Shown one piece after another: positions 22,627 through 49,167 of a stretch of 64,000 nt of DNA. Both the position numbers and the translations under genes were made by a program. Every line of letters starts with the position of its first letter. The stretch's first letter is position 1. Under the pieces are notes generated by a model, which worked only from the letters and a program-made list of their open reading frames with translations, searched no databases and had not been told where the DNA came from. Source of the stretch: Arthrospiribacter ruber (GTDB lineage Bacteria; Bacteroidota; Bacteroidia; Cytophagales; Cyclobacteriaceae); the NCBI RefSeq assembly GCF_019343195.1, contig NZ_RPHB01000007.1:62001-126000 (forward strand). The letters run 5' to 3'.

Positions 22627-22793
22627 TGGACTTAAGTTTAAATTCAATCTTAGCAGTATGAATAATTTATAATTGAAATTTTTCTTAAAAAAACCGGTCC
22701 GCTGATCACAGTCAATAGACTACAGAAGAAGTGAAAATATTGCTGGCATTACCTTAAGTTCTTGATCATTGAAAACTGGATAATCATAAAAGT

Positions 22794-22823
22794 AAAAAAG
22801 CCGTGAATACACTTCACAGCTTT
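22794..22823 (-). terminator. Terminator downstream of the tRNA-like pair
   Basis: Read on the minus strand, AAAGCTGTGAA pairs with TTCACGGCTTT (11 bp including one G-T pair) around a five-base loop, then a T run. It lies about 30 bases after the second tRNA-like gene and would end their transcript. Confidence 0.7.
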
Positions 22824-22854
22824 AGTCAATTAACAATAAACCCAAAATAACCAG

Positions 22855-22979
22855 CTGTAGGAGAAGGATTCGAACCTCCACGGAGAAGTTAGGCAAAAAT
22901 ACGAGCTCGCTATTCGCTTTATCCTTTGGTCTCCACCCCCGAGACAGGAGGGCTTGTCTGCCAATTTCAACATCCTACA
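22855..22979 (-). ncRNA. tRNA-like RNA with extra-long variable arm (copy 1)
   Basis: A 125-nt sequence folds as a class II tRNA. The acceptor TGTAGGA pairs with TCCTACA (7 bp). The D arm has TTG/CAA with a Leu-like AAATTGGCAGA loop, the anticodon arm has CCCTC/GGGGG with loop CTGTCTC (anticodon position GTC), and the T arm has GGAGG/CCTTC with the invariant TTCGAAT loop. The base after the acceptor is G. The region between anticodon and T arms is 56 nt, against about 12-20 in normal class II tRNAs. It can form GGAGA/TCTCC outside and GCGAA/TTTGC inside. No CCA is encoded. It is not a standard tRNA for any amino acid that I recognise. Confidence 0.7.
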
Positions 22980-23030
22980 GTATAAATTTTTCAAACTTTG
23001 CCAACAGTCGTTTACTGTTAGTAATTTTGG

Positions 23031-23154
23031 CTGTAGGAGAAGGATTCGAACCTCCAAAGGGCAGTTAGGTAAAATACGAGCTCGCTATTTACTTTATTCC
23101 GAAATCCCCACCCCCGAGACAGGAGGGCATGTTTGCCAATTTCATCATCCTACA
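23031..23154 (-). ncRNA. tRNA-like RNA with extra-long variable arm (copy 2)
   Basis: A 124-nt second copy lies 51 bases upstream of copy 1 in the direction of transcription. The acceptor, anticodon arm and loop, T arm, discriminator G and the AGCGAGCTCGTATTTT block of the variable region are identical to copy 1. Differences keep pairing: the D stem is ATG/CAT instead of TTG/CAA, and the inner variable stem GTAAA/TTTAC replaces GCGAA/TTTGC. The three bases after the discriminator are CCA, which may be an encoded tail or chance. The variable region is 55 nt. Confidence 0.7.
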
Positions 23155-23195
23155 ATTCTGTGTTTCAATAAGACCTTTTGTCTTTGTTGATGATT

Positions 23196-23203
23196 CAAAG
23201 TTA
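23196..23203 (-). promoter_or_regulatory. Probable -7 element for the tRNA-like pair
   Basis: TAACTTTG on the minus strand matches TAnnTTTG exactly and ends 41 bases before the 5' end of copy 2. A -33 element at the expected distance was not found. Confidence 0.4.
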
Positions 23204-48727: not shown

Positions 48728-48802
48728 GGAACTTTAGCTCAGTTGGTTTAGAGCGCTGCCTTGACAGGGCAGAGGTCGTGGGTTCGAATCCCTCAAGTTC
48801 CA
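48728..48802 (+). tRNA. tRNA-Val (anticodon GAC)
   Basis: The 75-nt gene folds into a normal cloverleaf: acceptor GGAACTT/AAGTTCC, D arm GCTCAGTTGGTTTAGAGC, anticodon arm CTGCC/GGCAG with loop TTGACAG, T loop TTCGAAT, discriminator A. The anticodon GAC reads valine codons GUC and GUU. The T stem has one T-T mismatch. No CCA is encoded, so tRNAs here depend on CCA addition. It serves as a size and form reference for the two tRNA-like genes at 22.8-23.2 kb. Confidence 0.9.
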
Positions 48803-49167
48803 CTTTTTTAGTTTCCCCTCTCATAAGTCCATCCCTCCATTGGATTTGATATAAGAGAAAGCGATAGGTACAGGTCATACAAAATATACTAAAAAACCTT
48901 AAAGTTTGAATCCTCGAAATTCTATTCAGAGCTGCTTAACTTAAACCACTCCATGGCATAAAATTATGCTTCCAGTATGATTATTGCACAAATGTGAGTA
49001 AACTGTTGCCAAGAGGCGAGTAATCTTTCTCAATTTAAGATATTTGGGAGCCCAAAATTGGGCATTATAAATATCCTTATTGGTTGACCAGTATAATACG
49101 TCAAATCCGTCTTTTGCTTTACAAAGCACATACGGCGGCATTTTTAAAACCTTTTGAAAAACAATTC
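48803..49167. other. Intergenic region between tRNA-Val and the AI-2E-family gene
   Basis: About 365 bases. The frame open from 49084 is upstream of the probable start of the next gene. No further RNA gene or repeat was identified. Confidence 0.4.

Follow-up and report, generated by a model that had tools for sequence, protein, structure and literature searches.

A conserved family of tRNA-like noncoding RNAs with an aspartate-type anticodon loop in Bacteroidia and their phages

In Staphylococcus, tRNA-derived tRNA-Gly species that serve the cell-wall bridges occur in several copies, are charged by the normal synthetase and evade translation. In tmRNA and the bacterial Y RNA (YrlA), tRNA mimicry is found within a longer noncoding RNA. 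Decoding, for its part, needs U33 and a purine at position 37. The allo-tRNAs are unusual class II tRNAs found by sequence search; they have a long variable arm, are of the G73 type, frequently carry the anticodon GUC and are not called as ordinary tRNAs, and they are listed for Clostridia, Proteobacteria and Acidobacteria (Mukai et al. 2017; PMC7609411). As to identity elements, the strong determinants of aspartate are G73, G34, U35, C36 and C38, with G2-C71 as a minor one; A73 is the crucial determinant of leucine, serine identity is independent of the anticodon, and the change of A73 to G73 is known to turn Leu tRNAs towards serine (PMC9976931).

The window analysed here, 64,000 nucleotides of the Arthrospiribacter ruber genome, contains two tRNA-like genes on the minus strand (Table 1). 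A sequence-only reading had taken them for intact class II tRNA-like genes of 124 and 125 nt, which direct reading and genome searches confirm, the extents from both being the same. Each copy has a 7-bp acceptor stem (TGTAGGA/TCCTACA) followed by U8, a Leu-like D loop on a 3-bp stem (ATG/CAT in one copy, TTG/CAA in the other), the anticodon stem CCCTC/GGGGG with the loop CTGTCTC, a variable region of about 55-56 nt, and a T stem with the loop TTCGAAT, followed by G73. The upstream copy is followed by an encoded CCA and the downstream copy by CTG; this difference had been noted correctly, as had the TAnnTTTG element ahead of the pair and the strong terminator behind both genes. A third copy of the family was found by DNA search on the same contig, about 58 kb away. 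The flanking genes, encoding an FtsX-like permease and a DUF2784 protein, are not conserved as neighbours of the family. ARAGORN calls neither copy. Its only tRNA call in the window is an ordinary tRNA-Val (gac) at 48728-48803. A search of Rfam 15, as the sequence-only reading had proposed, gave no family above the gathering threshold at either copy and, at E up to 5, only chance matches. Single-sequence folding does not set the two copies apart from shuffles (z +1.19 and -0.78), so the reality of the RNA rests on comparative evidence.

Table 1. Features of the two-gene locus, in window coordinates
Feature	Position	Strand	Details
tRNA-like RNA gene, upstream copy	23031..23154	-	124 nt; G73 at 23031; direct reading; model R1 139.2 bits
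tRNA-like RNA gene, downstream copy	22855..22979	-	125 nt; G73 at 22855; direct reading; model R1 137.9 bits
Promoter-like TAnnTTTG element, Bacteroidota type	23196..23203	-	TAACTTTG; direct reading
Leader, from promoter element to first copy	23155..23195	-	with AAGACAAAAGGTCTT hairpin; direct reading
Spacer between the copies	22980..23030	-	51 nt; direct reading
Intrinsic terminator	22793..22820	-	hairpin GCTGTGAAGTGTATTCACGGC and T-run; direct reading

Comparison places these genes in a conserved family of tRNA-derived noncoding RNAs that occurs in the class Bacteroidia and in phages. When 98 relatives were searched at the DNA level, 76 genomes gave matches, often as tandem copies. Model R1, built from aligned copies (alignment A1) and used with a cut of E 1e-14 that sets aside its matches to ordinary tRNA-Leu (82-86 nt, 52-59 bits), identifies a clear copy in 74 of these 98 genomes of the same order; the other 24 have none, and the RNA is therefore not essential. 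In a class-wide sample, long, high-scoring copies clearly apart from ordinary tRNA-Leu were found in many further families. Carriers made up 24 of 247 genomes in a sample drawn from the phylum, all of them inside the class among the matches listed. The named groups with copies are Cytophagales, Chitinophagales and Saprospiraceae, and the hosts found by pattern scan include Algoriphagus, Cyclobacterium, Dyadobacter, Belliella, Marivirga, Emticicia, Chitinophaga, Segetibacter, Flavihumibacter, Portibacter and uncultured Saprospiraceae. The plasmids of PLSDB gave zero matches to the family. No description of the RNA was found in the literature searched, which lay outside most subscription papers and preprints; within these sources the family appears to be undescribed, and it is absent from Rfam 15.

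The fold is conserved together with the sequence. Among 121 distinct copies, pairing is present in 96.7% of helix cells and drops to 53-61% when the structure is slid by 1-3 columns, and two-sided changes occur at 19 of 28 pairs compared with 11.1 in shuffles; this alignment was fitted to the model and hence leans towards it, whereas the first set, of 31 copies, is a MAFFT alignment with no structure fitted. Compensatory changes are seen in all helices, apart from pairs that hardly vary, and the 7-bp acceptor, the 5-bp T stem and the outer 4-bp stem of the variable arm all covary. The proposal of selection on structure, based on the two window copies, is thus borne out by the shared architecture of 74 of the 98 relatives and by covariation in both sets against shuffled and slid controls. 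An absence of covarying homologs outside this genome would have counted against it, and such homologs were found far outside. What had been seen in the sequence was correct, and indeed understated.

The variable arm is the least uniform element. Beyond the outer stem, most cellular copies have an internal loop GGAUAAA/CUAAC, followed by an apical part of very variable length, so that the total RNA ranges from 108 nt to more than 180 nt. The centre of the arm, AGCGAGCTCGTATTTT, had drawn attention by its identity in both window copies; it is not a conserved core, the apical arm being the most variable part of the family. Moreover, one relative (L298, G071:C23:55338-55413) has a copy of 76 nt with a 7-nt variable loop in place of the arm, which retains U1-A72, G73 and the loop CUAUCUC (U35, C36 and C38 kept, G34 not); the long arm is therefore not an invariant part of the family. 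Dimerisation through the arm palindrome GAGCTC was rejected, since the loops of other lineages are ordinary and in one lineage the apical stem has two pairs and a GAAA loop. The word GGGUUGACCAC is conserved apically in many long-armed copies (L079, L082, L084, L090 and phage copies), and phages also have GGGGUAGACCACC. The palindrome TCCCGATAGCTATCGGGA occurs at L002:1674-1985 and L081:1501-1637: one copy has it as an insertion within the variable arm, and in two others, which look damaged, it has taken the place of D-arm and anticodon-stem sequence.

The strongest constraint lies in the anticodon loop. In a census of 126 copies found without fixing the loop, two of which are unreadable because a palindrome has destroyed the stem, the loops were CUGUCUC (65), CGGUCUC (20), UUGUCUC (14), CUAUCUC (6), UGGUCUC (5) and others with at most 3 copies each. 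U35, C36 and C38 are present in all readable copies and G34 in about 93%, A or C taking its place in the other 7%. By contrast, the features needed for decoding are not maintained: U is found at position 33 in about 76% of copies, the rest having G, C or A as replacements seen in several separate families, and position 37 is almost always U, C or G being rare there and a purine occurring in 3 of the 126 copies. G73 is invariant in alignment A1, and G2-C71 and U1-A72 are invariant among the 121 distinct copies (U1-A72 in 121 of 121); position 10 is mostly A or U, U11-A24 is found in 110 of 121 copies, and the pair 30-40 is mostly U-G. The nucleotide after G73 (C74) is an encoded C in 200 of the 202 copies with downstream sequence. 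Set against known identities, the family carries the strong determinants of AspRS but not the class I variable loop, G1-C72 and G10 of tRNA-Asp. Instead of the A73 and anticodon of tRNA-Leu it has G73 and a GUC-type loop. From the tRNA-Ser set it shares G73, the large variable region (with the one arm-less exception), G2-C71 and R4-Y69, and lacks C72, C11-G24 and G30-C40. The host's own tRNA-Asp has the loop CTGTCAC, G73, G1, G10 and a short variable loop. Conservation of the loop for the sake of a queuosine transglycosylase was rejected, as U33 is not kept.

The RNA is apparently expressed, to judge from its flanking signals. Of 211 leaders (60 nt), 86 contain TAnnTTTG, compared with 7.2 in shuffled leaders, and 37 contain the boxA-like GTTCTT, compared with 3.5 expected; these counts are indications, since the shuffles keep base composition only and relatedness makes the sequences dependent on one another. 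In the host rrn leader stands AAGTTCATTGAA, with similar words in some leaders of the family. Terminator-like sites follow 115 of 205 copies, compared with 9-17 in shuffles. The commonest site of the family is divergent from an Lrp/AsnC-family gene (Pfam), which lies upstream at 101 of 159 loci across many families, mostly 122-184 bp away, and is followed at a number of loci by sufB, sufC, sufD and sufS. In the genome of the window, unlike in most relatives, the Lrp/AsnC-sufB-sufC-sufD-sufS locus stands on another contig (L300, G000:C12:591500-598500) without a copy of the RNA, implying that the window copies are relocated paralogues.

The family is also carried by more than 40 viral contigs, 35 of which were identified by a pattern scan of IMG/VR and the remainder by a second, looser scan; the known phage records of INPHARED gave zero matches. 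Genes for the portal and the terminase large subunit lie near the RNA on one carrier contig, and another encodes a relative of the T4-type RNA ligase. On several phage contigs the RNA adjoins 14 to 25 ARAGORN-called tRNAs, tRNA-Asp included, and two carriers have a tmRNA call. GUCUC and U33 are retained without exception in the 35 distinct phage copies. Extra D-loop sequence, hairpin-like where read, is present in the phage copies L223, L224, L229, L233-L236, L239, L240, L249, L254 and L255. Three phage contigs (L226:5130-8251, L227:4332-5973 and L248:5065-5412) each hold several cassette-like tRNA-Leu-like shells that ARAGORN does not call, with a near-identical acceptor and D arm (AGTCAGGTGGCG...GGTAGACG) and an identical T arm, ATACAGGTTCGAATCCTGTCCTGACTA, around wholly different centres of 60-100 nt that have no normal anticodon arm.

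The reading we prefer, with a probability of about 0.4, is that the RNA is a non-decoding tRNA which is charged by AspRS and acts off the ribosome. A Leu-type tRNA body would have taken on aspartate determinants while decoding constraints relaxed, exchanging the Leu discriminator A73 for G73 and gaining the Asp-type anticodon loop Y-N-G-U-C-U-C together with an enlarged variable arm. The transcript would mature in the manner of a tRNA, by RNase P, RNase Z and CCA addition, and AspRS would recognise it through G34-U35-C36, C38 and G73 and load it with aspartate. As U33 and purine-37 are not maintained, the charged RNA would not decode; it may donate its aspartyl group in a transfer reaction, or it may sense AspRS or act as a sink for it, and its expression is probably adjusted by the linked Lrp/AsnC regulator via the divergon. 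The full tRNA sets of phage carriers, which already include tRNA-Asp, count in favour of a non-decoding RNA charged by AspRS. Counted against it are U1-A72 and the mostly A or U position 10, where bacterial tRNA-Asp keeps G1-C72 and G10, and the roughly 7% of copies with A34 or C34. MprF/ErdS-type transferases were dropped as partners on distribution: LPG_synthase_C (PF09924), the fold of known Asp-tRNA-dependent lipid transferases, is found in 1 of 98 relatives, which makes a lipid-transferase route unlikely. Ro60, the partner in YrlA-type systems, was likewise dropped, a TROVE/Ro60 gene being found in 12 of 98 relatives and not in the genome of the window.

Rated second, though unlikely in itself, is an RNA for which aminoacylation is irrelevant, namely a structural or base-pairing regulator or a protein-binding RNA, which would make contact with an mRNA or a protein through its GUCUC loop and might belong to the Lrp/AsnC regulon. 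The tight divergent linkage to the Lrp/AsnC gene, the tandem, multicopy genes and a conservation that is strongest in a single-stranded loop all speak for such a regulator, but it leaves unexplained the whole tRNA frame, G73, the encoded C74 and the coincidence of the five most constrained sites with the Asp determinants; furthermore, the RNA is carried by phages with full tRNA sets, and many copies lie away from Lrp. Charging with serine fits less well. SerRS would read the long arm and G73 while ignoring the anticodon, as in allo-tRNAs, giving a seryl donor or a mistranslating tRNA, and the sequence-only reading had pointed in this direction. The large variable region, G73, G2-C71 and R4-Y69 agree with the bacterial serine set and the A73 to G73 switch leads Leu tRNAs the same way (PMC9976931), while GUC is often carried by known allo-tRNAs (PMC7609411). 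However, SerRS needs no anticodon, so that invariant U35, C36 and C38 would have no explanation, and C72, C11-G24 and G30-C40 are missing. It is the conserved set of G34, U35, C36, C38 and G73, and the arm-less relative that keeps all of these apart from G34, that favour AspRS over SerRS.

Phage carriage might be explained by a mimic that absorbs or survives an anticodon nuclease, as a decoy or replacement against tRNA-cutting defence or toxins. Arrays of up to 25 ARAGORN-called tRNAs around phage copies, the T4-type RNA ligase relative of one carrier and the tandem, multicopy host genes agree with this role, which is nevertheless still more doubtful than serine charging: vertical conservation beside Lrp/AsnC over many families looks like that of a housekeeping gene, a decoy need not retain the determinants of one synthetase, and no nuclease gene recurs among the neighbours. 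A special decoding tRNA, as the sequence-only reading had suggested, is improbable, whether it is taken as an unusual isoacceptor that reads GAC/GAU as aspartate or as a recoding tRNA; the 7-nt loop with GUC and the frequent U33 agree with it, but U33 has been lost in separate families, 37 is nearly always U, and ordinary tRNA-Asp is already present in hosts and carrying phages. In phages decoding is less clearly excluded, because every distinct copy there keeps U33. Finally, decay of ordinary Leu or Ser tRNA copies that had taken up an insertion might account for the tRNA-Leu-like body, for the 52-59 bits that ordinary tRNA-Leu scores with the model and for the two copies of one relative that seem damaged by a palindrome; this is ruled out by the presence in 74 of 98 genomes and the compensatory changes, along with class-wide conservation, promoters and terminators. 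The other two options of the sequence-only reading, a tRNA-derived regulatory RNA and a non-translational aminoacyl donor, are both still plausible.

A structured RNA found in the majority of genomes of one order, and in several groups of phages, escapes Rfam 15 and a standard tRNA finder. If it is charged with aspartate, it would be an example from nature, in a large environmental clade, of an aminoacyl-tRNA kept apart from decoding, and one open to genetic testing, since some culturable hosts, for example Dyadobacter or Chitinophaga, have a single copy. More tentative still is the idea of a dedicated non-proteinogenic Asp-tRNA, class-wide, phage-borne and used only outside decoding, which would be controlled by an Lrp/AsnC regulator with links to the genes of iron-sulphur cluster assembly and would serve a target reaction or a regulatory circuit of a new kind. 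Phages that bring nearly all tRNAs carry the RNA as well, which suggests that tRNA-like RNAs working outside decoding are of importance during infection.

Among known systems, the allo-tRNAs share with the family all the general traits by which they were introduced above. They differ in their 12-bp acceptor branch of 8/4 or 9/3, compared with 7/5 here, and in their diverse anticodons and serine identity, whereas the present family has one loop sequence with Asp determinants, a variable arm of up to about 100 nt and a distribution in Bacteroidia. Bacterial tRNA-Asp(GUC) has G73, G2-C71, G34, U35, C36 and C38 in common with the family, and the host loop CUGUCAC differs from CUGUCUC at position 37 only; however, it is a class I tRNA with a short variable loop, G1-C72, G10 and A37, in contrast to the Leu-like D arm, U1-A72, U37, relaxed position 33 and giant arm seen here. 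With bacterial tRNA-Leu the family shares the class II frame and an almost identical D arm (phage tRNA-Leu, GATGGAATTGGTAGACATGCC; this family, GATGAAATTGGCAGACATGCC); it departs from tRNA-Leu by replacement of A73 and the Leu anticodons, by the length of the variable arm and by U1-A72. The non-proteinogenic tRNA-Gly of Staphylococcus concerns another amino acid in another clade, its arm is not enlarged and it works with a cell-wall transferase. Unlike tmRNA and YrlA, the family has no tag reading frame and retains a closed anticodon arm and a full acceptor stem.
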